Shown: piece by piece, positions 2 to 14,572 of the stretch
Layout of the letters: every line of letters starts with the position of its first letter
Position numbering within the stretch: position 1 is the stretch's first letter
Virus record (IMG/VR): IMGVR_UViG_3300009496_001444
Coordinates: 1-23,860 of that record
Direction: 5' to 3' (one strand)
Source: a virus
Length of the DNA stretch: 23,860 bases
Notes under the pieces: model-generated
Told to the model about the DNA's origin: nothing
Database searches by the model: none
What the model saw: only the letters and a program-made list of their open reading frames with translations
Made by a program: the position numbers and the translations under genes

Positions 2-154
2 AGTGTAAAGCGTAGTTATAGCTGTCACGATGTGCCGCTCGGTAACATCGAAACAGGATTCAAGTTGTTTGATAAGCCGCAGCCTTGTATTACTAGTAGT
101 TGTGTTAGCAGCGCCGATAGCAAAATACCAAAAAGGAAAACAGATGTTCTCTAA
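2..154 (+). CDS. Partial C-terminus of an unidentified Cys-rich protein
   Basis: An open frame runs in from the left edge and stops at TAA 152-154, leaving 50 residues. The tail has three cysteines: one in SCHDVPLGNI, then two more spaced as PCITSSC. It ends in a basic KIPKRK stretch. Cysteines around a GNI turn recall the C-terminal SPASM/twitch cluster region of some radical SAM proteins, but too little is left to assign a family. The next gene starts inside its last codons (ATG 144, 11-nt overlap), the same spacing style as the rest of this cluster, which supports it as a real gene end. The function is a weak guess; the coding call is moderate. Confidence 0.5.
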   Translation, partial: SVKRSYSCHDVPLGNIETGFKLFDKPQPCITSSCVSSADSKIPKRKTDVL

Positions 155-710
155 AGTAACAGATCTGCCGTGTTATGATTTAAGTGGTGAATTTCAAAAG
201 CTACTTGATAATGATGTAATACGCTGGCACGAAGTAGAGAAAGATCAAATTTGTTTAAACACAGTGCCCGGGCAAGATGATAATTTCTTTTACGGCAGAG
301 GCAGTTTAGACTACGACTGGGATAATAGCACAGTAGACAGCAACGGCACGATTAAAGTGTCGCTACGTGATGTTCCGTTAAAAGAACAAGACTTTACGGT
401 TCTTTGTTCACAGTTTCGAAATACAGTATTTGAAGATGTATATAATGCGCTGACTTCTAAGTATAAGTTAGGAAGAGTTCGTATAATGAACCTACAGCCT
501 AAGAAGTGCTTAACATGGCACGCTGATAATACAAATAGGGTACATTATCCGATAAAGACGCAAAAAGGCTGCTTTATGGTTATAAATAGTAAAGTACAGC
601 ATTTAGATCAAAACACTTGGTGGTTTACTAACACTAACAATAACATGCATACAGCGTTTAACGGTAGTAAGCAAGATCGATACCATTTAGTGGCAGCAAT
701 ATTGGATTAG
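144..710 (+). CDS. Fe(II)/2-oxoglutarate-dependent dioxygenase-like protein
   Basis: This 188-residue protein probably uses a double-stranded beta-helix fold to couple 2-oxoglutarate decarboxylation to oxidation of an unknown substrate. The iron triad reads as H126-x-D128 (motif TWHAD) and H169 (NNMHTAF), with R179 (DRYHLV) as the likely 2OG carboxylate anchor. The strand before the HxD (GRVRIMNLQP) resembles aspartyl/asparaginyl beta-hydroxylase-type proteins. The start was set at ATG 144 because an AAGGAAAA ribosome site precedes it; the frame is open upstream, but that stretch is better read as the previous gene in another frame. The stop lies 2 nt before the desaturase. The substrate cannot be told from sequence. 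Confidence 0.72.
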   Translation: MFSKVTDLPCYDLSGEFQKLLDNDVIRWHEVEKDQICLNTVPGQDDNFFYGRGSLDYDWDNSTVDSNGTIKVSLRDVPLKEQDFTVLCSQFRNTVFEDVYNALTSKYKLGRVRIMNLQPKKCLTWHADNTNRVHYPIKTQKGCFMVINSKVQHLDQNTWWFTNTNNNMHTAFNGSKQDRYHLVAAILD

Positions 711-712
711 AT

Positions 713-1387
713 ATGAGTTTAATAATAGCAGTTATAGCAGGACTAGTATGGGGACAGTTAATCTCGCATTGGGGCGCTAGCATTTTGCTTCATCGGTATT
801 ACTGTCATAAGCAGTTTCATGTACCTAAATGGTACGAAGCTATAGGACTATTCATGCTATCAATTGCCTATATAAGATCGCCGATAGGCTGGATTGCTAG
901 TCATAGGATGCACCATCAGTATTCAGACTCTGCTAATGATCCTCATAGTCCTAACCATGTAGGATGGTGGAGAGTGTTCACTACTACTTGGGATATTCCG
1001 AAAATCCCAACTAAGTATGCTCGTGACTTATACACTAACCCGATGCTAGTATTTTTACATAAGCATCACTTTAAGATACTTGTAATACATTGGGCAATAG
1101 CAATACTGGTTAGTTTCTTTATTCCATATTTTTTCGTTGCGTATGCTCTAATACCTTTTGTCCAAGCAAAAATAGGGTTTGGTCTTATTAACACTATGGG
1201 CCACGATGATGGTCCGTCTAACGCACCGTGGATAAACTTATTTGTTGCGGGCGAGGGATATCATAAAGAACACCACGATAATTGGCGTCGTATACGCTTA
1301 CATAAATTCGATACTGGCGGATGGGTTGCTGAAAAGCTAATACAGCTAGGTATTTTTAAAAGCAATAAAAACTTAAAGAAGGCTTAA
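713..1387 (+). CDS. Membrane fatty acid desaturase (acyl-lipid/acyl-CoA type)
   Basis: This 224-residue integral membrane di-iron enzyme is expected to place a double bond in a fatty acyl chain. All three histidine boxes of the delta-9 desaturase family are present: H27-RYYC-H32, H64-RM-H67-H68 and H184-KE-H187-H188. Hydrophobic segments lie near residues 1-25, 44-62 and 122-152. It is shorter than typical bacterial homologues (about 270-320 residues), mostly in the loops and tail, yet keeps every metal-ligand box and so is probably active. It starts 2 nt after the preceding dioxygenase stop, and its own stop shares one base with the next ATG (TAATG), so translation is probably coupled. It would act in the host inner membrane and could change membrane fluidity or make a lipid substrate for neighbouring enzymes. 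Confidence 0.88.
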   Translation: MSLIIAVIAGLVWGQLISHWGASILLHRYYCHKQFHVPKWYEAIGLFMLSIAYIRSPIGWIASHRMHHQYSDSANDPHSPNHVGWWRVFTTTWDIPKIPTKYARDLYTNPMLVFLHKHHFKILVIHWAIAILVSFFIPYFFVAYALIPFVQAKIGFGLINTMGHDDGPSNAPWINLFVAGEGYHKEHHDNWRRIRLHKFDTGGWVAEKLIQLGIFKSNKNLKKA

Positions 1388-2040
1388 TGGTAGAAGTAAT
1401 ACAGAAAATATTAAGTAAACAAAGCTTAGACAATATAGAAGAATATTGGACTACTGATAGCGAGCGGGTACTAACAGATTCAATACAGGGCAAAAAGAGA
1501 AACATAAAGCTCGTTAACGGCGATATTATTAAAGAACTAACAGGCAATGATTTAGACAGGTACGAAGTTCATAGCGGGTTCTTTGCAATAGCAGGCGAAC
1601 CTTACAAAGTACACTGCGACTTAGGGAAGAACCCAATAACACATAACTTGTGTATTAACCTATTACCAGACGATCAGCTAAACGACCAAAGTATTGTAAT
1701 TCTAAAGCAGCTTACTAGAAATAGAATAATATTAGTAGATGACGATACGCCTGACTCTATATTAGAGATATATCAAAAAGTAAAATATCAGCCTGTGTAT
1801 GCTAGTACACTACACGAACATGTTGATAATATTTCATCAGACTTACAAATAACCGACGAGCAGAAACAGTATATGTCTCATGTGTGGCAACAAACTTTGC
1901 CCTATTTAGATGTTGACAAAGTTGTACATCACAAGTATAATCAAGGTATACTATTTGATAGTAGGCATTTACATTGCGGAGGATCTGCTCAAGGTGATCA
2001 TAAGCGATGTGTATTATACGTGAGGTTAAAAGATGAGTGA
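1387..2040 (+). CDS. Fe(II)/2OG dioxygenase-like protein
   Basis: A 217-residue protein with a dioxygenase-like metal site. H76-x-D78 lies in KVHCDLG, and a distal HLHCG motif (H194/H196) is followed by R207 before the final strand RCVLYVRL. Conserved-looking strands HSGFFAIAG and NLCINLLP flank the HxD. A spacer of about 100 residues between HxD and the distal His is long and mostly polar, so it may be an inserted lid. The ATG overlaps the desaturase stop by one base, with AAAGAAGG just upstream as ribosome site. Its 3' end overlaps the next gene by 8 nt. It is clearly different in sequence from the other oxygenases here, so it is not a recent duplicate. Substrate unknown. Confidence 0.6.
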   Translation: MVEVIQKILSKQSLDNIEEYWTTDSERVLTDSIQGKKRNIKLVNGDIIKELTGNDLDRYEVHSGFFAIAGEPYKVHCDLGKNPITHNLCINLLPDDQLNDQSIVILKQLTRNRIILVDDDTPDSILEIYQKVKYQPVYASTLHEHVDNISSDLQITDEQKQYMSHVWQQTLPYLDVDKVVHHKYNQGILFDSRHLHCGGSAQGDHKRCVLYVRLKDE

Positions 2041-2407
2041 TAATTTTGTATGGAGAGAAGGTAGGCAAAAAACAGGCTATCAGCGAATGAAAATATTTAC
2101 AATTTCATGGCCTATACATTTTGACTGTTATATTCTTCGAATGAAGCCAGGTGCGTCGGTTAAGCCGCACAAGGATCTTATGCGAGGCAAGTGGCGTAAC
2201 AAAAAAGCATATAGATTAAATCTAATTATGAATACGCCTGATAAAGGCGGCGAGTTCCTTACAGAGAAATCAATTATTGATTGGCCGCAGTTAAAGCTAT
2301 TTCGTCCTGACATCTATACACACGAAGTCACTACAGTTGAGGGGAATAAAACTCGATACGTATTGAGCTTAGGGGTTGCTGTTAATGATAACAAGCATAA
2401 ACAGTAA
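2033..2407 (+). CDS. Small Fe(II)/2OG dioxygenase-like protein
   Basis: This compact 124-residue protein looks like a minimal 2OG-Fe(II) oxygenase barrel. The H46-x-D48 pair sits in VKPHKDLMRG, the distal ligand H97 in YTHEVTT, and R108 in NKTRYVLSLG, giving the full HxD...H...R pattern at normal spacing. Strand RLNLIMNTP and a GGEF turn match aspartyl/asparaginyl hydroxylase-like proteins. At this length it lacks the usual N-terminal support helices, so it may work as an oligomer or with a neighbour. It overlaps the previous gene by 8 nt and the next by 23 nt. Substrate unknown. Confidence 0.68.
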   Translation: MSDNFVWREGRQKTGYQRMKIFTISWPIHFDCYILRMKPGASVKPHKDLMRGKWRNKKAYRLNLIMNTPDKGGEFLTEKSIIDWPQLKLFRPDIYTHEVTTVEGNKTRYVLSLGVAVNDNKHKQ

Positions 2408-3023
2408 TCTATATGTTGAGACTTTTACTAATGATAATAGTCAATTAACTGCTAAAGTAGAAGATTACAGAAATTACATAGTTTCTCGAAATCATTTAAA
2501 TGATCAAAAACTTATAGAAAATTATAAATCTCATCGTCTTAAGTTCGAAGATCAAGTTGCTACTAGCATTCTTACAGACGGCAACAGTATATTTGCTTTC
2601 AGTACCGTTTTTCACAGAGAATTTTTCGGCAGAGGTGTATATCGCTGTTTAAATCGTTGTTACTTTGATCCCGATTTGCGATACTGGCAACATTTAGAAA
2701 AGAAAAAGAATAAAAACTACCAAGGTAACCCTCGGATAAATATAGTAACGCCAGTAATGATTCAACATCAACTAGATGTTCTCGACGGGTACAAAATGGT
2801 TTTTATGTCTTCTGAGCCATGGAAGCCGTACTGGGCAAAAAGCTACTGTAGGAACTTAACTGAAAAAACTTTAGTTAAGTGGGAGCATAGCCAATTACTG
2901 CACCCGGTGTGTTATAAAGAGAGTTCAAGTTGTTGGCAACATATCATATGGACTGGACAATTTTTATTAGATGAAGGATTATCCTATGATGAATACAAAG
3001 CAAGACCTTTTAAGCAACACTAG
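2385..3023 (+). CDS. Conserved-looking protein of unknown function
   Basis: This 212-residue soluble protein has no motif I can assign. It is rich in aromatic and basic residues, with several Trp and Cys and no signal peptide or membrane segment. The pattern IFAFSTVFHREFFGRGVYRC followed later by KMVFMSSEPW loosely recalls an acyltransferase (GNAT-like) sheet, but this is not firm. ATG 2385 is preferred over TTG 2376 because AGGGG lies about 9 nt upstream. It overlaps the preceding oxygenase by 23 nt and the following one by 38 nt. It is the only member of the overlapping cluster with no recognisable redox motif, so it may be a transferase or scaffold for the same pathway. Confidence 0.6.
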   Translation: MITSINSNLYVETFTNDNSQLTAKVEDYRNYIVSRNHLNDQKLIENYKSHRLKFEDQVATSILTDGNSIFAFSTVFHREFFGRGVYRCLNRCYFDPDLRYWQHLEKKKNKNYQGNPRINIVTPVMIQHQLDVLDGYKMVFMSSEPWKPYWAKSYCRNLTEKTLVKWEHSQLLHPVCYKESSSCWQHIIWTGQFLLDEGLSYDEYKARPFKQH

Positions 3024-3729
3024 GCATTCTTACCCGTACTTAGTTAAGACCGATTATAAGTTTGATCTTGATAAGCTACGTGAAGAAATGATAGCTATTG
3101 AGAAGCAAAACGGTTGGGAAGATATGACTAACCAAAGTGATTTAGTTGCTGGATTGATTCAAGGCAGAAAGCGACTAACTAGTGCGTTTGCTAACAATAG
3201 CGGCGACTATGACGACTACAAGCAGATGATTGTAACAGACATTGATAGAAATGTAGTTGACGAAAATGATTATGCTCAAGTTAACGATAGCGAAAAGTTT
3301 GCTACCTACAAAACAGATATGAAGCGTGGTGCTGCGATTCAAGATGAAACACTTTACGGTAATTTAAGAAGTGTTATGGACGTAGCGCCTTATACAAGTA
3401 AAATGTTAGAGTCGTTTCCTGATCCGTTAGCACGAGTCCGTTACGCAAAGATTAAACCAAACTTTGCTATTAAGCCGCATATTGACTATAATACTACATA
3501 CGGAATGCGGTATCATATTGCTTTACATACGAACGATAAGTGTAAAGTAGGATTTAGACGAAATAAAACACAAGAGTTCGAAGAGTTTCACATTCCAGCA
3601 GACGGCCACTTATATTACTTCAATCAAGGGTTTGAACATTTTGCTAACAACTACAGTGACGAAGAGCGTATTCATATCGTTATAGGTTTGGGTGGCCAGC
3701 AGCTTATGGAACCGTATAAGATAAAGTAA
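2986..3729 (+). CDS. Aspartyl/asparaginyl beta-hydroxylase-like Fe(II)/2OG dioxygenase
   Basis: A 247-residue protein with the clearest beta-hydroxylase-type signature of the set. RVRYAKIKPNFAIKPHIDY holds H165-x-D167, H218 lies in GFEHFANN, and R228 in EERIHIVIGL. The N-terminal 130 residues are acidic and helical and precede the barrel. ATG 2986 was chosen because AAGGA lies 7 nt upstream; the open frame continues to 2971 and a second ATG follows at 2989. The stop shares a base with the radical SAM gene (TAATG). Family members hydroxylate Asp/Asn side chains or act on small molecules. Which applies here is unknown. Confidence 0.72.
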   Translation: MMNTKQDLLSNTRHSYPYLVKTDYKFDLDKLREEMIAIEKQNGWEDMTNQSDLVAGLIQGRKRLTSAFANNSGDYDDYKQMIVTDIDRNVVDENDYAQVNDSEKFATYKTDMKRGAAIQDETLYGNLRSVMDVAPYTSKMLESFPDPLARVRYAKIKPNFAIKPHIDYNTTYGMRYHIALHTNDKCKVGFRRNKTQEFEEFHIPADGHLYYFNQGFEHFANNYSDEERIHIVIGLGGQQLMEPYKIK

Positions 3730-5690
3730 TGAAAAACATCCTAATCTGTCAACCTCCGATGTATCAGGGAACGACATGGCTTCCTTATCTATATGGGTCA
3801 TTGCGCACAGTAGCTGAGCAAGACGAAGAAGTAAAACAGAATTACAATTGGCTAAGTCCGTTATTTCGGCAAGTTGATACAATTAAGGATTTCACTGATC
3901 ACTATGATCCTAAAGAAATAGATATACTTGGGATAAGTTGCTACGAGTGGAATCATATTATTAACTTCAAAATTGCCGAGTACGTTAAGTTACACAACCC
4001 AAACTGTTTAATAGTAGCAGGTGGCCCTCAACCTCCTTGGCGAGATGATAAAGTATTTGATACTTATCCGTACATTGATATTATCATTAAGGGCGACGGA
4101 GAAGTTCCGTTTTCTTCTATTCTAAAAAACTTAGTAAACAATAGATCAAACGACCTAGTACCTGGGTTAATCATTAATAATCAGGGTGTAGCACAGCGTA
4201 CAGCAAAAGAAGTACCTTACAAGTTTGATATAGGTCCTAGTCCGTATATACACTTGTCTAAGCAGTTTGAAGAGTTTGCTGCATACCCAGAACCGTCATT
4301 TGCTGCTCTCGAAACAAACAAAGGCTGTCCTTATAAATGTACTTTTTGTGACTGGGGCTCTGCTACTAATCAAAAAATACGTAAGGTTGGTAGAGATAGA
4401 GTATACCAAGAGATAGAATGGTTTGGTAAAAATAGCATTGAAATGATTTATATTACAGATGCTAACTTTGGCATTCTGCCCGAAGATGTTAACATAGCTA
4501 AAGCACTAGTGGAAACTAAAGAAAAATACGGATTTCCCCGTACCGTATTTTATAATCTAGCAAAGAATAACGACGACCGTATTGTTGATATATTGAAAAT
4601 GTTCACTGACGCAAACATGATCAATAATACAATTATGATTAATTTCCAGTCTACACTAGACAGCGTACTTGATGCTATGGAACGTTTTAATGCGCCGTTT
4701 CCTAAGATTAAAAATATGGTCAGGAGGCTAATTGATGTAAACATTGCGCCCGGCAGTGCATTGATACAAGGCGCTCCTCTTGAAACTGTAGATTCGTGGA
4801 AGAAGTCTGTAACAGATGTATATGAACTAGGTATACACGAAGAAACACGGATCTTTATCTGGCAACAACTACCTAACGCACCTGCTACTGATCCCGAATA
4901 TATTGAAAAATACAAACTACAGGCTGTTGATCGAGCTCCGATAATGAACAGATTTAATAAAGACCTACTACCTAAGATAGGAAGGCTTGGGCTTTCGAGT
5001 TACTTAGTTGAATCATCGTCTTACACTAGAGACGATTGGGCTGAAATGGGGGTCTTTAGTGCATTTACTTTAATGTGTCATAACTTTGGCTTTACTCGCT
5101 ATATTGCCCAATATCATAAGCACAGTTTAGGTGTTCCTTACTTTGATTTTTATAACACGTTATATGACAAATTTAAAACAACAGAACATTATAGTAAATT
5201 AAAAGATCACTTGTATAAGTTTGCTGCTCAGGACGGAAGTACATTTAATATCGACTACGATGATAGTTTGCCGTGGCTGTTAGACCCGGAGGAATACTTG
5301 TTTTTGTCGATATCCGAAGATCAAGAGCTTTTTTATCATACAATGTTTAGTGACGTTACTGACGCAGAGATATTAGATCTAATAAGATTTCAGCAGCAGT
5401 CTATGATTACAGTTAAATCAAAAAATCCTAAAGATGTAATCTTTACTATGAACCAAGACTGGATAGCATACTTTCGATATCTTAAGTCGAGCTACTACGA
5501 GATTGAAGACTATAAGCCGGAACAAACTAAGCGCAAGTATCGGTGTAATACATCGCACTATAATAAAATCTTTGATAATTTATCTCTCGAGGATTACTGT
5601 GTTAAGATATTAAAACGCAAAGCAGGTCGGCAGGATTATACATTAATATCATTTGAAAAGTTTAAGGATGTAACAAATGATACCAACTAG
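3729..5690 (+). CDS. B12-binding radical SAM protein
   Basis: This 653-residue enzyme is the largest in the window. Residues 1 to about 160 look like a cobalamin-binding Rossmann domain (ILICQPP start, DILGISCYEWN, LIVAGGPQPPW, IIIKGDGE). Next comes the radical SAM core with the 4Fe-4S motif C200-PYK-C204-TF-C207-DWG. The last 250 residues are an unassigned domain. The family (class B) often methylates unactivated carbon or phosphorus, or carries out ring rearrangements. The usual B12 DxHxxG motif is not evident, so cobalamin may bind base-off without His. Its place between 2OG dioxygenases, overlapping both (1 nt and 14 nt), suggests a shared biosynthetic or tailoring pathway. The substrate cannot be predicted. 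Confidence 0.85.
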   Translation: MKNILICQPPMYQGTTWLPYLYGSLRTVAEQDEEVKQNYNWLSPLFRQVDTIKDFTDHYDPKEIDILGISCYEWNHIINFKIAEYVKLHNPNCLIVAGGPQPPWRDDKVFDTYPYIDIIIKGDGEVPFSSILKNLVNNRSNDLVPGLIINNQGVAQRTAKEVPYKFDIGPSPYIHLSKQFEEFAAYPEPSFAALETNKGCPYKCTFCDWGSATNQKIRKVGRDRVYQEIEWFGKNSIEMIYITDANFGILPEDVNIAKALVETKEKYGFPRTVFYNLAKNNDDRIVDILKMFTDANMINNTIMINFQSTLDSVLDAMERFNAPFPKIKNMVRRLIDVNIAPGSALIQGAPLETVDSWKKSVTDVYELGIHEETRIFIWQQLPNAPATDPEYIEKYKLQAVDRAPIMNRFNKDLLPKIGRLGLSSYLVESSSYTRDDWAEMGVFSAFTLMCHNFGFTRYIAQYHKHSLGVPYFDFYNTLYDKFKTTEHYSKLKDHLYKFAAQDGSTFNIDYDDSLPWLLDPEEYLFLSISEDQELFYHTMFSDVTDAEILDLIRFQQQSMITVKSKNPKDVIFTMNQDWIAYFRYLKSSYYEIEDYKPEQTKRKYRCNTSHYNKIFDNLSLEDYCVKILKRKAGRQDYTLISFEKFKDVTNDTN

Positions 5691-6525
5691 CGATCAGCAC
5701 GAACACTTTAGAGAACAGGGCTATATTGTTTTAAAAGATGTGCTATCTGACGAATTAGTTTCTTCGTTGTCTGAATTATGTAAGCTATCAGAAGAGTATC
5801 ACGAGAAGTACTCTAGTCAATATTTTATAGACAGGAACGAAGAAAACTTTTTTATAAAATATAAAACAGCTTTAGATATTGCTAATGATCATAATGTAAA
5901 TTTACTACCTATAGATGAATGGTGTCATCGTACTATATACTATCAAGAAGGCTACGAAAAAGAGCCCGAAGTATTAAATTACATTAAGATGCTTGATCGC
6001 ACAATTGGTATTTACGAGTTATTAGCAACACTGCTACAATCTAAGCACTTACAATTCTATAATGCCCAGTTATGGAAAAAGCATGCACGGTCTTGTGACC
6101 CCACAGAGATACACAGAGACTACACCGCATTTGATATGAAGGGTCTAAAAAGTGCTTGCGCATGGATAAGTCCCACAACAGTTCGAAAAGAACATTCTGC
6201 TTTTCAGGTAATTCCCGGTAGTCATAAAGGCGTTGATCATACTACTAAGCATTGGATAGATAAAGACTATTATACTCGTGACAAGTATAACTTAGTAACA
6301 CTAGAAGTAGAACCTAAAGATGTAATTATAATTGATCTACGACTAAGTCATGCCGCTACGCCAAATGTATCGAATCTCGATCGATATGCCATGACATTAA
6401 GATATCTAGGAGATGACTTGCGGTATTATAACAGACCACAGAAGCATAGATTCGGAGCAAGAGCTGAGATCGGCGATGATGAATTATACCCATTAGAACG
6501 ACATCCTATTGTATGGCAATCTTAA
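5677..6525 (+). CDS. Phytanoyl-CoA dioxygenase (PhyH)-like protein
   Basis: This 282-residue Fe(II)/2OG oxygenase has the typical PhyH opening (FREQGYIVLKDVLSDELV). The iron ligands are H146-x-D148 (EIHRDYTAF) and H225 (LSHAATPN), and R236 in NLDRYAMTLRY is the likely 2OG anchor. The motif VIPGSHKG is also characteristic. Bacterial and phage PhyH proteins hydroxylate varied lipids and small molecules, so the name does not fix a substrate. It overlaps the radical SAM gene by 14 nt and is the last intact gene of the plus-strand cluster. The sequence just after its stop continues in frame with a degraded copy of its own C-terminal motif (see the next entry). Confidence 0.85.
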   Translation: MIPTSDQHEHFREQGYIVLKDVLSDELVSSLSELCKLSEEYHEKYSSQYFIDRNEENFFIKYKTALDIANDHNVNLLPIDEWCHRTIYYQEGYEKEPEVLNYIKMLDRTIGIYELLATLLQSKHLQFYNAQLWKKHARSCDPTEIHRDYTAFDMKGLKSACAWISPTTVRKEHSAFQVIPGSHKGVDHTTKHWIDKDYYTRDKYNLVTLEVEPKDVIIIDLRLSHAATPNVSNLDRYAMTLRYLGDDLRYYNRPQKHRFGARAEIGDDELYPLERHPIVWQS

Positions 6526-6618
6526 GTTGAAGATTACTGCGCAACGCCTAACATTTCAAATGAAGATCGTTGCGCTGCCGCTATACGTTATTACGGCGAT
6601 GATATGGTGTTCTTTTAA
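6526..6618 (+). pseudogene. 3' relic of a second PhyH-like dioxygenase
   Basis: After the PhyH stop at 6523-6525 the same frame stays open for 30 codons to TAA 6616-6618. From 6541 it reads ATPNISNEDR, then a short run, then IRYYGDDMVFF. This matches ATPNVSNLDR...LRYLGDD of the intact gene (residues 227-247), including the 2OG-binding Arg. The expected His-Ala before ATPN is replaced by Tyr-Cys and there is no start or upstream domain, so this is a gene end left behind, not a working gene. It most likely marks replacement of an older PhyH gene by recombination, or a tandem duplication. Its stop overlaps the stop of the convergent tail-fibre gene. Confidence 0.7.
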
Positions 6619-7871
6619 GACGTAGTAAAGGTAATCCAAGCGCTGTTTTGATAGCCTTGGAATACATTCAAGCTAGTGTTGTAAATAACCATTCCGTTCG
6701 CAGCAGTAAGGGCATCACGCTCTGCAGTAGTATAACTACCAAACTGTACAAAACCAGCAGCAGTAATAGTGCCGTTTATGCCGTCAATAATAGTAGTTGA
6801 GTCGTCTATCGCATACGAGCCTTTAAACGATCCAGCTTCAACGGTGCCAGTTACTGTGGCATTACCTACTACTGATAGCTTGTCAGCTGGGGTATAAGTA
6901 CCAATGCCGACGTTTCCGTCTACTATAGACATGTATGTGTTAGCGTTAGTGTGTACGCCTGTGCTATCATTACTAATAAATAAACCTGCGAACGAAGTGG
7001 CAATGTTTGTAGTCATTACCGTACCATCAGAACCATCACGACCCATTAGAATGGCACCGTATGAGACGTTACTTGCTGAAAGGTCTGAGATAGATTCTCT
7101 TTTAAATCTAAGGCTAGCTTTGCCGTTGTCTGTTGTAACATCATAAAAGAAGTCGCCTGCTTGTGTGTTACTAATTGAACCTGCGCCGCTTACTGTTATT
7201 TTTTCTCCGTTAATGGAGTTGTTAATGCCGTCGACTATCAATGTACTGTCTTCGCCGAACACACTTCCGCTTAGTACACCGTCAAATGGACCGTAGGAAA
7301 TGCCAGTAATGCCGTCAATTTTAAGTGTACTGTCATCGGAGAATACACTGCCTACAACGTCACCGGCATTAGCAGGAGCACCAGCTTCCCAACGGCTTAA
7401 TGAATTATTCCATACAAGTGCGTCTCCGTTTGACGGAATACTGTTGTGTACGTTTCCTATATCGCTAATTTCATTAGGAGCAAGATTTACTTTTCCGCTT
7501 ACTCCGTCAATTAGTATAGTACTATCGTCAGCAGCAAACGTACCTTTAAAGCTACCAGTAGCAAGGCCAACTGTTGCTGCTGTAAAGTTACCACTAGCAG
7601 CGCTTACAACGCCCGTAGCAGTAATGTTACCGCTATTGCTAATGTTACCTACTCCGGTAATATTATTACTATTTAGGTCTAAGGTGCCGCCTAGTTGCGG
7701 TGTTGTGTCTTCTGCTAAGTCATTAATACCAGTATCGGCTTTTGTGCCGCCGACTGTAGTACCGTCGCCGACATAAAGTAATTTTGTGTCAGTGGTATAT
7801 ATTAATTCACCTACCGCAGGTGTAATTGCCAAACGTTCAGCATCTGTGCCACGTCTAATCTGTAAAGCCAT
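6615..7871 (-). CDS. Tail-fibre-like structural protein with DDST repeats
   Basis: A 418-residue Gly/Ser/Thr/Asn-rich, Cys-free, beta-structured protein. The N-terminus (ALQIRRGTDAERLAITP, then GELIYTTDTKLLYVGDGTT) is the conserved attachment-type domain of marine phage fibre proteins. Four copies of a repeat GSxxxDDSTxxxDGIxG lie near residues 107-127, 173-192, 202-221 and 347-368. GNVGIGTYTPADKLSVVGN (319-337) is the collagen-like/shaft motif often found before fibre tips. The C-terminal RDALTAANGMVIYNT...FQGYQNSAWI element is a common fibre end. It probably forms a trimeric fibre or adhesin that touches the host surface. A late promoter motif lies 30 bp upstream with GGGAG as ribosome site. 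No chaperone/peptidase S74 domain is visible. Confidence 0.85.
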   Translation of the reverse strand: MALQIRRGTDAERLAITPAVGELIYTTDTKLLYVGDGTTVGGTKADTGINDLAEDTTPQLGGTLDLNSNNITGVGNISNSGNITATGVVSAASGNFTAATVGLATGSFKGTFAADDSTILIDGVSGKVNLAPNEISDIGNVHNSIPSNGDALVWNNSLSRWEAGAPANAGDVVGSVFSDDSTLKIDGITGISYGPFDGVLSGSVFGEDSTLIVDGINNSINGEKITVSGAGSISNTQAGDFFYDVTTDNGKASLRFKRESISDLSASNVSYGAILMGRDGSDGTVMTTNIATSFAGLFISNDSTGVHTNANTYMSIVDGNVGIGTYTPADKLSVVGNATVTGTVEAGSFKGSYAIDDSTTIIDGINGTITAAGFVQFGSYTTAERDALTAANGMVIYNTSLNVFQGYQNSAWITFTTS

Positions 7872-7900
7872 TGATAACTCCCGAGTATATCTCTATACTG

Positions 7901-7908
7901 TATTTATC
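7901..7908 (-). promoter_or_regulatory. T4-type late promoter motif (GATAAATA) for the tail-fibre gene
   Basis: On the minus strand the sequence reads GATAAATACAG, one base from the T4 late -10 consensus TATAAATA. It lies about 30 nt upstream of the tail-fibre ATG, in the 41-nt gap after the preceding gene. No good TTGACA lies 17 nt upstream, as expected for late promoters. A late promoter fits a virion protein. Confidence 0.6.
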
Positions 7909-7912
7909 AACT

Positions 7913-8221
7913 TTACTTACGTTTCTTCAAAAAGATCGTAGTTCTTTTTTCGATGTCTGCTTTGATTTTATCCATGTCAACGTTGAAATTAAGAGATTCT
8001 ATGGAATCTTCGTATTCTTCATACAAATCTTCCATAGCTTGCTCGAGGTCATCGGAATTGCTATATTGATTAACGTCAATTAACCATACTTTTCCGTCGA
8101 TAAAAGTAACCTTAATTTGCTTTACATAATCCGTTGGTATAGATTCAATATGAAGATCATCTAGTATTTCAGGCCAGCTTTGTACAGTATGATCTTCAAA
8201 TTGTTTATGTTTATTCTTCAC
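7913..8221 (-). CDS. Conserved phage protein of unknown function (GTG start)
   Basis: A 102-residue acidic protein with a likely beta-sheet core (YVKQIKVTFIDGKVWLIDV) and an acidic helical region (DLEQAMEDLYEEYEDS), ending in a Lys-rich tail. GTG 8221 is preferred because it gives only an 11-nt overlap with the upstream gene. An ATG-started version would begin at 8293 and overlap it by 83 nt. There is no clear ribosome site before the GTG, so coupling to the upstream gene's termination may drive translation. From memory, T4-like marine phages carry similar small proteins next to the two genes upstream; the role is unknown, perhaps morphogenesis. Confidence 0.65.
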   Translation of the reverse strand: MKNKHKQFEDHTVQSWPEILDDLHIESIPTDYVKQIKVTFIDGKVWLIDVNQYSNSDDLEQAMEDLYEEYEDSIESLNFNVDMDKIKADIEKRTTIFLKKRK

Positions 8222-8822
8222 TGGCGTTCTTAAGTCTGTCAGTGATTTCCTTAGCTTGTGCTCTAAGAACCTTTGCTTCTTTAAACATAGCATCCGCTTG
8301 TGAACGATACTGAGAAGCTAACTGTTCGTCAGTGAGCGCACCGTCTTGTGCTGCTGCTTGAACAGGAGCAGGCGCTGGATCTACGTATGCGTCTACTGGA
8401 TCTGCTGCTTCAGCAACAGGAGCAGCAGGCTTACCGCTAGGGTCTTTAAGAGCAAGGTCAGCTACAGTGACACCTTTTTGTTGAGCAATAGTATTGTTAA
8501 GCTCAACAAGATCAATTACAGTGCGAGTGTCAGGGGTCATCTCAACCTGATCAGCTGTTACTTTAATCATCTTACCAGTAGTATGAAAGCCTGCGAGCAT
8601 TACACGTCCGTCCGGCAAACGGGTACGTGCCATTGCTTCAGCAAGCTCGTAAGACTCTTGACCAGCTGCGCTTTCGACTAGCTTAATTAAAGCATCGTGT
8701 TCTTCGGCTAGTAGTGTTTCGGTTGGCACTACAACAGCTTCGTTGTCTGTACCGGGGACAACACGATATGCTACGATACACTTCTTTTGGGTCTTTTTAA
8801 TTCGACCTACATGCTTTAGCAT
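8211..8822 (-). CDS. Conserved T4-like marine phage protein, probably structural
   Basis: This 203-residue protein starts at ATG 8822 (MLKHVGRIKK). A longer open frame upstream would run far into the preceding gene, whose stop ends at 8824. Residues 1-125 form a compact domain (CIVAYRVVPGTDNEAVVV, SYELAEAMARTRLPDG). The C-terminal third is an Ala/Pro/Asp-rich linker (PAAPVAEAADPVD) plus a charged helix likely to coil. The layout suits a virion or assembly-associated protein, and I recall similar proteins in T4-like cyanophages, but no activity is known to me. It sits in a three-gene block under a perfect late promoter (9081-9088), which supports late expression. Confidence 0.75.
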   Translation of the reverse strand: MLKHVGRIKKTQKKCIVAYRVVPGTDNEAVVVPTETLLAEEHDALIKLVESAAGQESYELAEAMARTRLPDGRVMLAGFHTTGKMIKVTADQVEMTPDTRTVIDLVELNNTIAQQKGVTVADLALKDPSGKPAAPVAEAADPVDAYVDPAPAPVQAAAQDGALTDEQLASQYRSQADAMFKEAKVLRAQAKEITDRLKNASEE

Positions 8823-8823
8823 A

Positions 8824-9051
8824 TTATTCTCCAGTTTCTTCAGCAGTATCTTCGTCAGCTGACTGAGGTTGAGCTGCTTGCTCGGCAGCAACAGCTTCGA
8901 AGAACTTGGTTAGTTTGTTGTATAATTGACCAGCGGCGATTTGCTCATCGCCTGGTTCAAAGGCAGCTCGCTTTGAAGCTAGACCGATTAACTGACGTAC
9001 GATATTTAGATCGTTTACAGTTAGTTCAATGTTACTATTTTCTTCCGTCAT
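8824..9051 (-). CDS. Small conserved acidic phage protein
   Basis: A 75-residue, mostly helical protein (ELTVNDLNIVRQLIGLASKR, then QLYNKLTKFFEAV) with a highly acidic tail (SADEDTAEETGE). It starts at ATG 9051 with AGGAG 6 nt upstream. It is the first gene behind the TATAAATA late promoter at 9081-9088 and is followed without a gap by the 203-residue protein. Proteins of this shape, with the same ELTVNDLN opening, occur in T4-like marine phages as conserved hypotheticals. It may be an assembly partner of the downstream gene. No catalytic motif. Confidence 0.75.
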   Translation of the reverse strand: MTEENSNIELTVNDLNIVRQLIGLASKRAAFEPGDEQIAAGQLYNKLTKFFEAVAAEQAAQPQSADEDTAEETGE

Positions 9052-9079
9052 TTTAAACTCCTATTGTTGACAGTATAAA

Positions 9080-9340
9080 TTATTTATAAGCTAACAAAAA
9101 GTAGCTCATCTCTTTTGGCTGCTCAAACGCTACTATTATTCTGTCAAAAGCTAATGATTTTATATAGTAGCGCCCGTGTGTATTTTGTAGAATCCAGTCT
9201 TCGATATTAGCTTCTGTTTCGTATGTAGCAGTGTCTTTGGCTATATCAGATCGTTCGAAGTGTTCGGGAAGAAAGAACACTTTTCTAATCCCGAACAATT
9301 CAAGAGCATTTGGCTTAATGTGTATCTTACGCTTCTTCAT
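9080..9340 (-). CDS. Hypothetical protein
   Basis: An 86-residue basic protein beginning KKRKIHIKPNALELFG, with a beta-rich C-terminus (RYYIKSLAFDRIIVAFEQ). No known motif, signal or membrane segment. Its ATG lies inside the end of the metallopeptidase/VWA gene (14-nt overlap) behind GGGGTGA, so it is translated from the same message and may be co-regulated with that gene. Function unknown. Confidence 0.65.
   Translation of the reverse strand: MKKRKIHIKPNALELFGIRKVFFLPEHFERSDIAKDTATYETEANIEDWILQNTHGRYYIKSLAFDRIIVAFEQPKEMSYFLLAYK
9081..9088 (-). promoter_or_regulatory. Perfect T4-type late promoter (TATAAATA)
   Basis: The minus strand carries the exact T4 late consensus TATAAATA, 29 nt upstream of ATG 9051. 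It overlaps the stop region of the preceding 86-residue gene, so the promoter is tucked into a 28-nt intergenic gap. It would drive the block 9051 to 7913. The position directly before structural-type genes makes chance less likely. Confidence 0.7.
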
Positions 9341-10568
9341 ATCGTGTAGTCACCCCAAACGGAGCTTGCATGTCCTTATCATAGTTACTGTGTAAAACAA
9401 ATACAGTGTCACAGTAAGTTTCGTCACCCCAACTACCCCAGCAATAGCCGTCTGTAAACATAATAAACTTCTTAGGCTCAATACCTTCTTCTTTCATAAA
9501 GTCCCAATTGGCCATAAAGTCAGTACCGCCGCCGCCGGCTGCTTCGTACTCAGTAAGGTCGCCGTTGTGAGCAGTAAACTCTTCTAAATTATAAACTTTG
9601 GTATCAAAACACCAAACTTTTACATTGTAATCGTTATACTGATCCATAATACTTTGAACCTCGCCGAGGAAGTCCATAAGTTGCTCATTGCTGATACTAC
9701 CACTAGTATCAAGCGCAATACATACATCAATAGTTTCTTCGTTTACAGTACCTGGAAGAACTACGCCGTATTGTGACTTGCGTGACGGACGAGAAAAGCT
9801 ATAATCGTTCTTTACAGTGCTTTGAATCTGCTGTTGGAGAATCTCACGCCAGTTCATCTTAGGTTCAGTGAACAGTTTAATAATACGTGCTACTTCTCCG
9901 GGCGTTTTGCCAGCACCAGCGGCTTGCGCTGCTGACAACATACTCTCTTTGACCTGATCCTTGATCTGCTTCAGCTCTTCTTTTGTATACGTAGGGCCGT
10001 TTTGATCATCGCCGCCGTGCTCGCTATTTTCAAGATCCAAGTGTTCGTCGAGCATTTCGCCGAGTTCACTAATGTCAATCTTATCAGCCTGTTCGTAAAG
10101 GTCGTCGTATACTTGTTCACTAGTCCATCCTTCGTACTTGAAGTCTTGGAAACAATCTACCAGCTTCGGCTTTGCGCCGATTTTATCACGGACAAGGATG
10201 TTGTTTACAATGTAGTCAGCAGCAATATTATACAATTTAGGATCACGATCGTTACGACGGCCTAGGTGATCGAATACACAGTGCAGAATCTCGTGAGCAA
10301 TAACAAACTCAATTTCTGCGTTATCCATAGCATTGAAGAATTCTGCGTTAAAGTACAGGTTGCGTCCGTCGACAGCCGCAGTAGGCAGCCAATCGTTAGC
10401 TGCTTTTACCTTAAGACGAGTAGCCATGTTACCGAAGAATGGGTGCTTTAGTAACAGTCCAACACGAGCAACTGTGATACGATCAAAGACATCAGCTGTC
10501 ATACGATCTAGCTCTTCTGGAGTAATGTCTGGGTTAGGTTGCCAATTCTTTTTACCGTCGACGCTCAT
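9327..10568 (-). CDS. Putative metallopeptidase with VWA domain (MoxR/CobS partner)
   Basis: A 413-residue two-domain protein. The N-terminal domain has a zinc-peptidase signature, H92-E-I-L-H96, preceded by EFVI and followed by NIAADYIVNN, as in the VWA-like predicted metallopeptidase family. The middle (about 165-255) is acidic and helical. The C-terminal VWA domain has the MIDAS set D287-T-S-G-S291, GGGGTD (345-350) and FTDG (371-374). The partner AAA+ ATPase is encoded just upstream, and both carry an identical promoter segment. MoxR-VWA pairs (RavA-ViaA, CoxD-CoxE, CobS-CobT) remodel or load metal into target proteins, so it probably serves as the adaptor or effector half of a phage chaperone. 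An AGGAGG ribosome site gives strong initiation. Whether the peptidase site is active is unknown. Confidence 0.85.
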   Translation of the reverse strand: MSVDGKKNWQPNPDITPEELDRMTADVFDRITVARVGLLLKHPFFGNMATRLKVKAANDWLPTAAVDGRNLYFNAEFFNAMDNAEIEFVIAHEILHCVFDHLGRRNDRDPKLYNIAADYIVNNILVRDKIGAKPKLVDCFQDFKYEGWTSEQVYDDLYEQADKIDISELGEMLDEHLDLENSEHGGDDQNGPTYTKEELKQIKDQVKESMLSAAQAAGAGKTPGEVARIIKLFTEPKMNWREILQQQIQSTVKNDYSFSRPSRKSQYGVVLPGTVNEETIDVCIALDTSGSISNEQLMDFLGEVQSIMDQYNDYNVKVWCFDTKVYNLEEFTAHNGDLTEYEAAGGGGTDFMANWDFMKEEGIEPKKFIMFTDGYCWGSWGDETYCDTVFVLHSNYDKDMQAPFGVTTRYEEA

Positions 10569-10578
10569 TGCATCCTCC

Positions 10579-10604
10579 TTGTTTATTAACTGTATATATA
10601 ATAC
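10579..10604 (-). repeat. 26-bp promoter-leader repeat, copy 1
   Basis: A 26-bp segment that recurs without mismatch at 11736-11761. It covers the -10 box and start region of the metallopeptidase/VWA promoter and ends just before its AGGAGG ribosome site. Flanking bases differ on both sides, so identity is limited to the promoter and leader. Confidence 0.85.
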
Positions 10605-10626
10605 AACAAAGCGCCCGACATGTCAA
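10598..10626 (-). promoter_or_regulatory. Sigma70-type promoter for the metallopeptidase/VWA gene
   Basis: On the minus strand TTGACA (10626-10621) is followed after exactly 17 nt by TATTAT (10603-10598), five of six bases of the -10 consensus. The -35 box lies in the loop of an inverted repeat (10605-10636). The start codon is about 30 nt downstream of the -10. This is probably an early promoter read by host RNA polymerase. Confidence 0.75.
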
Positions 10627-10636
10627 GCGCTTTGTT
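10605..10636 (-). terminator. Inverted repeat after the MoxR gene, overlapping the next promoter
   Basis: AACAAAGCGC and GCGCTTTGTT form a perfect 10-bp stem around a 12-nt loop that itself contains the palindrome GACATGTC. It begins 8 nt after the AAA+ gene stop. It could end or attenuate that transcript, though the following stretch is only partly U-rich. The same DNA holds the -35 box and spacer of the downstream promoter, so it might instead be an operator. Confidence 0.5.
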
Positions 10637-10644
10637 TAGTATTA

Positions 10645-11715
10645 TTAGTTTTGAGCTGCTTTAATATACTTGCCGTACTTTTCGTGGAACTCGTCGAAGC
10701 TTGGCACCTTATCTGGATCGATCGGCAACCGATACTGAGTAAGCGCAAGCTTCATTGCCATAACAACTAGTTCAGTATCAAAGTTCTTCATTGAGAACGT
10801 TAAGAACTGTTCGACCTTATCGTAGAACGTATCGTTGTCAACGTCTTGGCTAAGTTCGTAGCACATGGAAATAATTAGACTATACATAGCACTAATCTCG
10901 TCAGTATCGAGGGTATCTACTTTACCTGTCAAGATATCTGTTGGGTTCGGAAGCTTGCTAGCAACCTTACGATGCGCAATAAACTTAACAGCAAGTCCTT
11001 CGCCTACAGAGCCAGCTACCAAGTCCATAAGCGTATCGTCGTTGTAGTTACCGTTAAGAAAGTCACTTACAAATGACCACGAACGAGGTGTAGCAAACGA
11101 ACGGCTCGGAGATTTTGGATCAAAGTCGTACAAGTCTTGCTTGCTAAAGTTCAAGTACCCAACAACGTCAGCATGAACTTTGTTAGTAACAGCCCACTCA
11201 AACCAGTCATCAAACGATACTGACATTTCCAAGTGTACAAAACGGTTAGCCAACGGCGCCGGCATACGATACGTAACACCTTTATCACTGTCACGGTTAC
11301 CAGCAGCAACAATAAGAACGTTGTCTGGCAGCTTGTACTGACCAACACGACGATTAAGAATCAGCTGGTAAGCAGCCGCTTGTACTGCTGGCGGAGCAGA
11401 GTTCATCTCGTCGAGGAACAGAACAATATGTTCGTGTTCTTCTGCCATAGCAGCATCGGGCAATTCGCTTGGAGCAGCCCAAACCATTTTACCTTCAGTA
11501 GCGTTAAAGTAAGGAATACCCTTGATGTCAGTTGGCTCCCAAAGAGACAAACGAACGTCAATAACATGGGCGTTCATTGACGCACCAACTTGGTGAACAA
11601 TATCGGATTTACCAATACCCGGAGGGCCCCACAAAAACAACGGGCGCTTAGAATCAAAAGCAGCCGAGATAACTTGTTTTGCGGAGTTTGGTGAAGAAGT
11701 ACGAATCGTGTCCAT
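10645..11715 (-). CDS. MoxR/CobS-like AAA+ ATPase
   Basis: A 356-residue AAA+ ATPase. Walker A is G30-PPGIGKS37 and Walker B is IVLFLDEMN (97-105). A sensor-type AAGNRDSD and an arginine-bearing helix (PAPLANRFVHLEM) follow, as in MoxR and cobaltochelatase CobS proteins. The C-terminal 150 residues are a helical lid. It would form a hexamer that remodels a client through its VWA partner, encoded next. Marine T4-like phages often carry a gene labelled cobS of this type. The pairing here with a metallopeptidase-VWA protein rather than a plain CobT leaves chaperone and chelatase roles both open. It has its own sigma70-type promoter and an AGAGG ribosome site 9 nt before ATG. Confidence 0.88.
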   Translation of the reverse strand: MDTIRTSSPNSAKQVISAAFDSKRPLFLWGPPGIGKSDIVHQVGASMNAHVIDVRLSLWEPTDIKGIPYFNATEGKMVWAAPSELPDAAMAEEHEHIVLFLDEMNSAPPAVQAAAYQLILNRRVGQYKLPDNVLIVAAGNRDSDKGVTYRMPAPLANRFVHLEMSVSFDDWFEWAVTNKVHADVVGYLNFSKQDLYDFDPKSPSRSFATPRSWSFVSDFLNGNYNDDTLMDLVAGSVGEGLAVKFIAHRKVASKLPNPTDILTGKVDTLDTDEISAMYSLIISMCYELSQDVDNDTFYDKVEQFLTFSMKNFDTELVVMAMKLALTQYRLPIDPDKVPSFDEFHEKYGKYIKAAQN

Positions 11716-11735
11716 TTGCTAAAACCTCTGTGTGT

Positions 11736-11761
11736 TTGTTTATTAACTGTATATATAATAC
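11736..11761 (-). repeat. 26-bp promoter-leader repeat, copy 2
   Basis: Identical to 10579-10604. It covers the -10 box and transcript start of the AAA+ ATPase promoter, but the leader to the ATG is longer here. The sharing suggests that the ATPase and its VWA partner are expressed under the same control. Confidence 0.85.
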
Positions 11762-11783
11762 GACAGTTTAACCAAGATGTCAA
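11755..11783 (-). promoter_or_regulatory. Sigma70-type promoter for the AAA+ ATPase gene
   Basis: Minus strand: TTGACA (11783-11778), 17-nt spacer, TATTAT (11760-11755). The -35 box covers the stop codon of the preceding 128-residue gene. The leader to ATG 11715 is about 35 nt. The architecture matches the other TTGACA-17 promoters in the window. Confidence 0.75.
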
Positions 11784-12166
11784 ATGTTTTTTTGTCGTTC
11801 TATTGCTTTTATTAAGCCGTACTTTTCAAGATCGCCGGAGAATAGGCTTATCTCCATAGCCTTGCGATCGTCAGTAACTTGAATATACTTGGGCGTGAGA
11901 TAATACGGACAAGTGATAAACTTATCTAAGTAAAGAAGAACGTTTGTCTTTTGTATATTAGTTTCGGGCGGAAATTCAATTTTAAAGAACTGTATCTCTA
12001 GATCGTTTTTAAGAAAGTCTCGCCCGGCAGTGGTTAGTCTCAGGCCGCCTGTTGATTTACTACGGACATTATACCACCATTCAGTTGAGTAGTGTCTTAC
12101 ATTAGTTTCGTTAGAACTAACACCAGCGCTATTTAAGAATATCTTAGTATAAGCTAGTCTATTCAT
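11780..12166 (-). CDS. Hypothetical protein
   Basis: A 128-residue protein with alternating beta segments and TGGLRLTTAGRDFL near residues 40-53, a pattern seen in small phage hypotheticals. No catalytic motif, membrane segment or signal is visible. Its ATG overlaps the preceding gene by 8 nt, so it is translationally coupled to it, and its TGA lies in the -35 box of the ATPase promoter. Function unknown. Confidence 0.7.
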   Translation of the reverse strand: MNRLAYTKIFLNSAGVSSNETNVRHYSTEWWYNVRSKSTGGLRLTTAGRDFLKNDLEIQFFKIEFPPETNIQKTNVLLYLDKFITCPYYLTPKYIQVTDDRKAMEISLFSGDLEKYGLIKAIERQKNI

Positions 12167-12443
12167 GATCGTTAGTGTTACCGAACTTTACTACAGTAAA
12201 TTCACTAGTCTTCCACATAGTGTTTAAGCGTTGTGCCAAATTACGAGCATGACCTGGATTAGAGAAGCTGGTTTTTTTATATTTAGGCCCCGGGTAGTTA
12301 GTTAAACTATTAAAGCTTTTAAGATTAAAAGGTTTGCCTTGATAAAATACTGCCCAAATTGCATTAGCTTCTAGTACTTGCTCTGTTCTATAGGTGTGCC
12401 GATCGGTAAATTCTTTTAGCACTACGGGCTTTGGCCTGCTCAT
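12159..12443 (-). CDS. Small basic hypothetical protein
   Basis: A 94-residue, strongly basic protein (MSRPKPVVLKEFTDRHTYRTEQV). Its aromatic beta-hairpins (AIWAVFYQGKPFNLKS) are followed by a helix (HARNLAQRLNTMW), suggesting nucleic-acid or protein binding. It has AAGGA 8 nt before ATG and a late-type motif plus a 14-bp palindrome in its leader. I recall similar short proteins in T4-like phages as hypotheticals. Function unknown. Confidence 0.7.
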   Translation of the reverse strand: MSRPKPVVLKEFTDRHTYRTEQVLEANAIWAVFYQGKPFNLKSFNSLTNYPGPKYKKTSFSNPGHARNLAQRLNTMWKTSEFTVVKFGNTNDHE

Positions 12444-12457
12444 TTTTCGTTCCTTAT

Positions 12458-12477
12458 TATATACGTATATATTTATC
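12458..12477 (-). promoter_or_regulatory. Late-type motif with a 14-bp palindrome
   Basis: The 37-nt gap before the 94-residue gene holds TATATACGTATATA (12458-12471), a perfect palindrome. It abuts GATAAATA on the minus strand (12477-12470), a T4-late-like -10. A TATAAT also lies here but without a good -35 at 17 nt. The gene may have a late promoter with a symmetric site just downstream that could bind a dimeric regulator. Confidence 0.45.
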
Positions 12478-12479
12478 GT

Positions 12480-12719
12480 TTACCAATTGTTCCCACCGTC
12501 CATCTTGATATCAATGTACTCATAATCTCCAGCGTCTTTGGTCATTAGAAGTTGCTCTAAGTCTTCTGCATGTCGTGCGAGTAGTTCGGTGAGGCAGTAA
12601 TGTAGTTTCTTTGCTTTGTCTAGATCCATTCGAATCTCTTTTTGTCGACTTGACTCAGCAGCTTTCACTAAGCTAAGAAACTGACTAATAGGGGAAGTGT
12701 TAATTGGCTGTTTTTGCAT
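12480..12719 (-). CDS. Small helical hypothetical protein
   Basis: A 79-residue, mostly alpha-helical protein with heptad-like Leu spacing (FLSLVKAAESSRQKEIRMDL, then LTELLARHAEDLEQLL). It ends in a short polar tail, IDIKMDGGNNW. ATG 12719 is preferred; the open frame reaches a TTG at 12725. It overlaps the upstream gene by 20 nt. It may be a coiled-coil dimer. Function unknown. Confidence 0.65.
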   Translation of the reverse strand: MQKQPINTSPISQFLSLVKAAESSRQKEIRMDLDKAKKLHYCLTELLARHAEDLEQLLMTKDAGDYEYIDIKMDGGNNW

Positions 12720-14162: not shown

Positions 14163-14168
14163 AGTATT

Positions 14169-14197
14169 ATAGTAGTATATATCTACTCAAAAGTCAA
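14169..14197 (-). promoter_or_regulatory. Candidate sigma70-type promoter for the 5'-nuclease
   Basis: Minus strand: TTGACT (14197-14192), 17 nt, TACTAT (14174-14169). Both boxes are weaker than in the other promoters, and an overlapping TATAAT would need a 20-nt spacer. The predicted start falls on or next to the ATG at 14162, implying little or no leader. Confidence 0.5.
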
Positions 14198-14205
14198 CCT
14201 AGTTT

Positions 14206-14571: not shown

Positions 14572-14572
14572 A

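Follow-up and report, generated by a model that had tools for sequence, protein, structure and literature searches.

The window analysed here is the complete 23,860-base IMG/VR virus record IMGVR_UViG_3300009496_001444, and all positions below count along it. At 144-6525 on the plus strand, it carries one compact operon of eight genes (g1-g8), in which five predicted Fe(II)/2-oxoglutarate (2OG) oxygenases (g1, g3, g4, g6 and g8) are combined with a membrane-type desaturase (g2), a GNAT-fold acyltransferase (g5) and a B12-dependent radical S-adenosylmethionine (rSAM) enzyme (g7). Judged from sequence comparison with related viruses, this operon forms an exchange cassette that lies between a conserved radical SAM gene and a Mtd_N-type tail-fibre gene. 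The explanation placed first, with rather less than even confidence, is that of a modular oxidative-tailoring operon that is swapped en bloc, together with the fibre's receptor-binding half, and whose enzymes modify an acylated host-surface molecule matched to the fibre's receptor. At the level of sequence, the gene content, the intact active sites, the slot order shared by two cassettes, the borders and the coupling of cassette to fibre tip are established; a stepwise tailoring pathway is likely, and we infer that the enzymes act one after another on a single molecule.

Exchange of the cassette with the fibre tip

The exchange is apparent in contig 3300020595_001672 (loci L079 and L157), which represents almost the same phage, being 99.3% identical over window positions 7231-20568 and 97.8% identical over 1-139, with no DNA match between about 140 and about 7230 (7.1 kb in the window versus 9.0 kb in the contig). 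A third contig (L078) is 99.5% identical over 7208-20568 and has a different fibre end and different neighbours. The left break falls right where the radical SAM gene ends, immediately before the start of g1, and on the right the swapped block includes the C-terminal half of the fibre, leaving conserved the N-terminal half, which begins with the Mtd_N domain. Among near-identical phages, the N-terminal half of the fibre is 96-99% identical and the C-terminal 200 residues 35-55% identical. The set is no free-standing metabolic insertion, a point missing from an earlier note on this DNA; it sits between a conserved rSAM gene and the receptor-binding end of the fibre, and the biological unit extends into the tail-fibre gene. 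The fibre gene of the third contig (L078:12698-13960) looks mosaic: it is identical to that of the window over roughly the first 205 residues, diverges in its central part and resembles it again over the last ~80 residues.

Island content is coupled to fibre type across 32 dereplicated phages with this backbone (419 pairs), two phages being counted as sharing island genes when at least two genes were at least 50% identical. All five pairs with a fibre C-terminal identity of at least 0.65 share island genes, as against 4 of the 414 with dissimilar fibre ends, and the Mantel correlation between fibre tip and island is r 0.52 (p 2e-4), that between backbone and island r 0.29. Individual pairs follow the same pattern: L129 and L130 (backbone 93%, fibre end 29% identical) share no island genes; L096 and L118 (backbone 79%, fibre end 74%) share four of five. 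The type of fibre tip is a far better guide to island content than the likeness of the backbones. This coupling speaks for a unit of exchange without proving that its parts function jointly, and it suggests that a chemical-modification kit is exchanged together with the host-recognising part.

The gene forming the left border, represented by a full copy at L157:5534-6646, matches Radical_SAM at 7.9e-16. It is present in 34 fetched loci, in 31 besides L157 at 77-93% identity and in two at 63%, and is conserved even where the backbone diverges, as in L060 and L212 (one record), where rSAM identity is 89% and the VWA protein is only 48% identical to that of the window. Cassette families lie within eight genes after it in 33 of the 34 loci; in L177, the cassette adjoins on the opposite strand. 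It has no match in the cultured-phage collection, and its similarity to MoaA, viperin-like and SPASM models is of the generic rSAM kind, all below cut-off. Upstream of the cassette, between three and five different radical SAM genes follow one another at L157:463-6646 and L165:3471-9254; they include 'twitch domain' rSAM proteins above the NCBIfam cut-off, and SGNH-like proteins without a Pfam match lie there as well.

The two alternative cassettes also agree in gene order. The window reads AAH (Asp/Asn beta-hydroxylase-type oxygenase), desaturase, 2OG, 2OG, GNAT, AAH, B12 rSAM, PhyH and fibre, and L157 reads sulfotransferase, AAH, desaturase, 2OG (H99xD101), AAH-type 2OG (H110xD112, H163), GNAT, AAH, B12 rSAM, AAH, TauD, a short protein and fibre; over eight slots, the two agree throughout in enzyme class (2OG-desaturase-2OG-2OG-GNAT-2OG-B12 rSAM-2OG). 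Identities over slots 1-7 are 54, 34, 19, 28, 27, 22 and 33%, those of 19-28% being forced global alignments near background, where relatedness is drawn from family profiles and, in slot 3, from the motif only; slot 8 holds a different 2OG type. For five oxygenases, one desaturase, one GNAT and one B12 enzyme, the probability of one given order is 1/336 when all 2OG enzymes share a letter (uncorrected for the choice of the pair), and the simple reading would be an ordered pathway inherited from a common ancestor.

In most other relatives, island content and order are reshuffled, and the island sits in a recombination hotspot beside the tail fibre. Both observations would suit unlinked auxiliary genes, that is, separately gained oxygenases with different host substrates that pile up in a hypervariable hotspot. 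Such an accumulation is nevertheless distinctly improbable, since two very diverged alleles arrange their enzyme classes identically, neighbours are non-random and translational overlap is tight. Parts of the order recur in L160 and L161 (AAH-desaturase-2OG-GNAT-AAH-AAH) and in L177 (desaturase-2OG-GNAT-AAH-2OG), and in a set of 42 non-redundant islands GNAT adjoins AAH on the same strand 16 times versus 6.7 +/- 2.1 in shuffles (0/1000), and AAH adjoins B12 rSAM 11 times versus 5.7 (10/1000). Genes occurring singly and in unrelated orders, which the earlier note had named as counter-evidence to its pathway, are not what the closest comparison gives, where the same class fills all eight slots; distant phages are reshuffled, with the GNAT-AAH adjacency kept. 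Dense clusters recur as well, with up to five AAH- or g3-type genes in 6.4 kb in L163 and L167, and AAH genes number 1-5 per record in 32 of 32 records searched, these records having been chosen via such genes. A phage island at L058:9368-20624 holds three different desaturases, three AAH-type genes, two radical SAM genes and genes without a Pfam match. In a sister island, the fibre-adjacent slots (L165:11360-12869) are occupied by an aminotransferase of class IV and a ligase domain, short and of the AMP-binding type.

Enzymes of the cassette

Table 1. Positions of the cassette genes and their borders in the window, with the evidence for each assignment
Feature	Position	Strand	Evidence
Last 50 residues of the radical SAM gene at the left border (frame open at the edge of the window)	2..154	+	same as end of L157:5534-6646 except last codons
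g1: Asp/Asn beta-hydroxylase-type Fe/2OG oxygenase (AAH)	144..710	+	PF05118 7.5e-9; H126, D128, distal H and R conserved
g2: membrane-type desaturase, three His boxes	713..1387	+	eight His conserved 38/38
g3: Fe/2OG oxygenase, phage family without Pfam model	1387..2040	+	H76/D78/H196 invariant in 30 sequences; model matches PHD2
g4: short Fe/2OG oxygenase	2033..2407	+	PF05118 2.1e-4, PF13640 7e-4 (both below cut-off); phrog_13746 4e-27
g5: GNAT-fold acyltransferase	2385..3023 (start ATG 2385 or TTG 2376)	+	AlphaFold2 model; family of Mosig_00073
g6: AAH-type Fe/2OG oxygenase	2986..3729	+	PF05118 1.7e-11; 7v4f match
g7: B12-dependent radical SAM, TokK/KedN5 type	3729..5690	+	TokK 7kdx E 2.5e-90; CxxxCxxCDW motif
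g8: PhyH-type Fe/2OG oxygenase	5677..6525	+	PF05721 2.5e-20; MysH 4e-11
Tail-fibre-like gene, Mtd_N N-terminus	6615..7871	-	PF18454 5.5e-11; C-terminal half (~6615-7230) in swapped block
Exchanged cassette versus contig 3300020595_001672	140..7230		flanks near-identical, no DNA match between

The earlier note had described a cluster of five different Fe/2OG oxygenases at 2-6525, of which the stretch from 144 stands; positions 2-143 are part of the rSAM gene upstream, and the first oxygenase gene begins at 144. The five HxD sites were all located at the residues it gave (g1 H126/D128, g3 H76/D78, g4 H46/D48, g6 H165/D167 and g8 H146/D148, with g1 numbered from the ATG at 144 and g6 from the ATG at 2986), as were cysteines C200, C204 and C207 of g7, in which Radical_SAM and a weak B12-binding Pfam domain are found. 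The three His boxes of g2 are H27x4H32, H64xxHH68 and H184xxHH188. The count of five oxygenases is correct, their division into five kinds is not: the set comprises three kinds, namely AAH three times (g1, g4 and g6, one Pfam family), PhyH (g8) and a family without a Pfam model (g3). Their very low pairwise similarity agrees with the view that they are too diverged to be recent copies. Overlaps of 1-38 nucleotides, reported for most of the genes, occur at every junction except that of g1 and g2, which are separated by 2 nucleotides, and the proposed co-expression is supported.

The Pfam Asp_Arg_Hydrox (AAH) family includes g1 and g6, with g4 just short of the cut-off; the HxD motif of g4 is present, its profile membership being sub-threshold only. 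Among AAH relatives, the ligands are kept in 139/139 (H), 137/139 (D), 138/139 (distal H, one gap) and 124/139 (R), and the HxD...H metal triad is retained in the families of both g1 and g6. Because nearly all relatives keep the catalytic residues, these are judged to be maintained enzymes rather than chance motifs. Additionally, g6 matches the beta-hydroxylase 7v4f at 3.5e-9 and proline cis-4-hydroxylase at 8e-8, and is weakly similar to the acyl-chain hydroxylases LpxO and OlsC, far under the cut-off. The metal site of g8 aligns with that of MysH, and the protein is also close to SnoK; no member of its family scored above cut-off in 32 related records, and close-relative scans using g6 or g8 gave no matches, the families being reached via the desaturase, g1 and the backbone instead.

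For g3, which has no Pfam match, the metal-site residues are invariant across 30 aligned phage relatives, and the best structural matches of its AlphaFold2 model (predicted local distance difference test, pLDDT, 85) are 2OG oxygenases, PHD2 at E 5e-6; on this model, g3 is a predicted 2OG-fold enzyme, and the concern that several of the proteins might lack the fold was not borne out. Inside g3, at 1913-1941 (+), lies a perfect sigma-70 consensus (TTGACA-17-TATAAT). In a promoter and terminator scan, the promoter-like count was about that expected from shuffling and the terminator count about 2 standard deviations above it; neither was used as evidence.

Among its phage copies, g2 is 62-68% identical, and that of Pelagibacter phage Mosig carries an FA_desaturase annotation. 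A weak PDB match to acyl-CoA desaturase was obtained, with no match to PF00487 (FA_desaturase) and NCBIfam DesA at 1.5e-6, below cut-off; diverged g2 homologues in L058 do match PF00487. The earlier note did not mention g5, which has no Pfam match. Its AlphaFold2 model (pLDDT 86) has only GNATs among the top structural matches (E 4e-5, probability 1.00, template-modelling (TM) score ~0.45, ~10% sequence identity), and its family includes Mosig_00073, annotated as an N-acetyltransferase, so that g5 is assigned, on a modest TM of ~0.45, as a predicted GNAT acetyltransferase.

The alignment of g7 with TokK (PDB 7kdx) covers 467 residues and includes the motif GCPYxCxFCDWGSAT, and the rSAM cysteines are kept in 86 of 88 relatives, the other two being gaps. 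Scores remain below the curated NCBIfam KedN5 cut-off (209.7 bits versus 700) and the B12-binding Pfam cut-off (27.0 versus 32.1). A pattern scan found no cellular source for g2, and g7 has two cellular relatives only, at 30% identity; a recent host origin of g2 or g7 therefore appears unsupported.

Proposed substrate and competing explanations

In the preferred explanation, the substrate would be an acylated surface molecule of the host or an aminolipid or glycolipid precursor, whose chain would be desaturated by g2 and which would be hydroxylated at several positions by the AAH enzymes, g3, g4 and the PhyH enzyme, N-acylated by the GNAT and C-methylated by the B12 rSAM enzyme. A shared precursor would be processed by the left-border rSAM and given its variant form by the cassette, and the surface of the infected cell would thereby be altered to match the fibre's receptor, for example blocking adsorption of released virions or rival phages. 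A precedent is the serotype-conversion-like exclusion of other phages that has been proposed for fibre-linked islands of pelagimyophages (PMC7029224). Of the full oxidative tailoring pathway envisaged in the earlier note, the multi-step character is supported; its lipid, glycan or small-molecule substrate is still conjectural. The first choice is an acylated surface molecule, in view of a lipid-type desaturase that keeps recurring, the pairing of GNAT with AAH, the weak likeness of g6 to LpxO and OlsC and the genes of sister islands. The desaturase, constant in several cassettes, the g6 similarity and the position of GNAT beside AAH point in the lipid direction, and the sulfotransferase, DegT, carbamoyltransferase, UDP-sugar dehydrogenase, AMP-ligase and aminotransferase genes of sister islands point towards surface or sugar chemistry.

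Several points weigh against this explanation. No glycosyltransferase family was matched in 144-6525, and the similarity of g6 to the acyl-chain hydroxylases falls far short of the cut-off. That islands vary together with the fibre tip may reflect plain physical linkage without functional need, and the count of loci in which the left-border rSAM and the cassette co-occur is inflated, most of the 34 having been fetched via g1, with its conservation unaffected. Moreover, each of the two full alternative cassettes is a single metagenome contig, so either might in principle be an assembly chimaera; an exact 29-mer search for independent contigs with the full cassette returned none for that of the window and only the known contig for the other. 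Of the genes expected in an O-antigen or serotype-conversion module, no glycosyltransferase, flippase or O-acyltransferase was recognised in 144-6525.

A more elaborate scheme of combinatorial chemistry is rather doubtful. It supposes that a conserved rSAM trunk makes a common precursor and that the exchangeable operon (five or six 2OG enzymes, desaturase, GNAT and B12 methyltransferase) finishes a variant, the allele being locked to the fibre tip so that a change of receptor specificity would bring with it a change in the chemistry of surface or fibre.

The closeness of g7 to TokK of carbapenem biosynthesis and of g8 to MysH and SnoK, together with a comparable jumbo cyanophage cluster predicted to serve a secondary metabolite or capsule decoration (PMC7824862), would be in keeping with a diffusible metabolite (antibiotic, toxin or signal) made or finished by the cassette and released by infected cells. 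We consider this unlikely: no scaffold-forming genes (NRPS, PKS or CarA/CarB-like) were recognised in the window, although they could lie beyond the fragment, and the linkage to the fibre tip is left unexplained. Two specific pathways were also set aside. For a carbapenem-type pathway, g7 is TokK-like, yet no CarA/CarB-like enzymes were recognised by Pfam in the scanned proteins of the fragment; for a cluster of ribosomally synthesised and post-translationally modified peptides, there is no space for a precursor peptide, with no gaps in 144-6525 and only ~90 nucleotides before the fibre gene, a remote precursor being possible.

A further alternative, quite unlikely, takes the tail fibre or some other virion protein as the target of post-translational modification by the enzymes (Asp/Asn/Pro hydroxylation, GNAT acetylation, rSAM C-methylation), so that specificity travels with the tip. 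The AAH, GNAT and SPASM-type rSAM families, to which profile matches relate the enzymes (below cut-off for SPASM), include known protein modifiers, and the joint exchange of cassette and fibre C-terminus would follow naturally. However, the lipid-type desaturase and the sulfotransferase, AMP-ligase, DegT and carbamoyltransferase of sister islands better fit a small molecule or surface conjugate, and the closest relative of g7, TokK, has a small-molecule substrate.

Related systems and the phage backbone

Hypervariable host-recognition islands of marine T4-like phages are already known. The accessible part of PMC7029224 describes the hypervariable host recognition cluster (HRC) of pelagimyophages, with tail fibres, glycosyltransferases and rSAM cassettes, an AAH hydroxylase being a core gene of these phages, and likewise, in pelagimyophages and cyanomyophages, an island at the tail fibres with AAH, desaturase, rSAM and GNAT genes; it describes no ordered multi-2OG operon and no allele exchange with the fibre tip. 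The present island behaves in an HRC-like manner, being hypervariable, tail-fibre-linked and near-constant in its flanks. Neither VrlC nor gp14 was seen in the 23,860-base fragment, and by position the island does not classify as a T4-like HRC. Pelagibacter phage Mosig EXVC030M (MT647606) carries AAH-desaturase ... GNAT-AAH-fibre; it is T4-like with VrlC/gp14 borders, whereas the window has a PA5oct-like backbone and a conserved rSAM left border. Because the Mosig desaturase is 64% identical to g2 and no match to Mosig was seen among the window's genes beyond the island, a gene pool common to both lineages is indicated.

Other known systems overlap in part. Viral lipid desaturases of cyanophages and pelagiphages were reportedly treated by Roitman in 2018 (cited in PMC11480375); these are also phage-encoded, and g2 differs in being embedded in an oxygenase operon exchanged with the fibre tip. 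A phage-encoded desaturase on a pelagiphage contig is noted in PMC11480375. The ten-gene cluster of jumbo cyanophage S-SSM6a, with several 2OG oxygenases, is predicted to decorate the capsule or to produce a metabolite; its core consists of halogenase, carbamoyl transferases and HAD phosphatases, and the window has desaturase, GNAT and B12 rSAM instead (PMC7824862). With the TokK/KedN5 B12 radical SAM C-methyltransferases, g7 shares full-length similarity and the cluster motif; no carbapenem scaffold genes were recognised here. No literature on this specific arrangement was found; as far as the analysis goes, what is new is an ordered multi-2OG operon with a conserved rSAM border, exchanged allelically with the fibre tip, in a PA5oct-like lineage. 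Oxygenases of aquatic phages are common unexplained auxiliary genes, mostly read singly; here an ordered operon is replaced as a block, the exchange ties host-range evolution to surface or virion chemistry, and two natural alleles of one cassette make the purpose of phage 2OG oxygenases testable by comparison.

The record is very probably a piece of a larger genome, since related contigs span 260-330 kb, and megablast of the whole window against 50,697 phage records gave zero matches. Its minus-strand half encodes MoxR, a VWA-metallopeptidase, a 5'-exonuclease, GTP cyclohydrolase I and a QueE-like rSAM protein. Among isolates, the VWA and DpdA-like proteins are best matched by PA5oct-group jumbo phages of Pseudomonas, at 44% and 35%, and the backbone is assigned on such matches to a PA5oct-like jumbo phage lineage.

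On the minus strand, a QueE-like rSAM gene (14740-15648), GTP cyclohydrolase I (16239-16922) and a DpdA-like transglycosylase (21516-22970), a label read from the protein in the absence of Pfam or NCBIfam matches and hence putative, probably form a 7-deazaguanine DNA modification pathway; the near-identical contig has a QueC-like gene (L157:4214-4810). These genes would offer a setting for base hypermodification, with the oxygenases and rSAM enzymes acting on phage DNA. That alternative is very improbable, as a membrane-type desaturase is unsuited to it and FolE and QueE are constant while the cassette varies. A 355-residue protein at 18898-19965 (-), GT-B glycosyltransferase-like on reading its sequence and ~70% conserved in the backbone of relatives, has no Pfam, NCBIfam or PHROG match and could be a DNA glycosyltransferase. 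At 9327-11715 (-), the MoxR AAA ATPase adjoins the DUF2201 metallopeptidase-VWA protein, whose gene is encoded in at least 395 IMG/VR stretches, and the pair is kept throughout the relatives.

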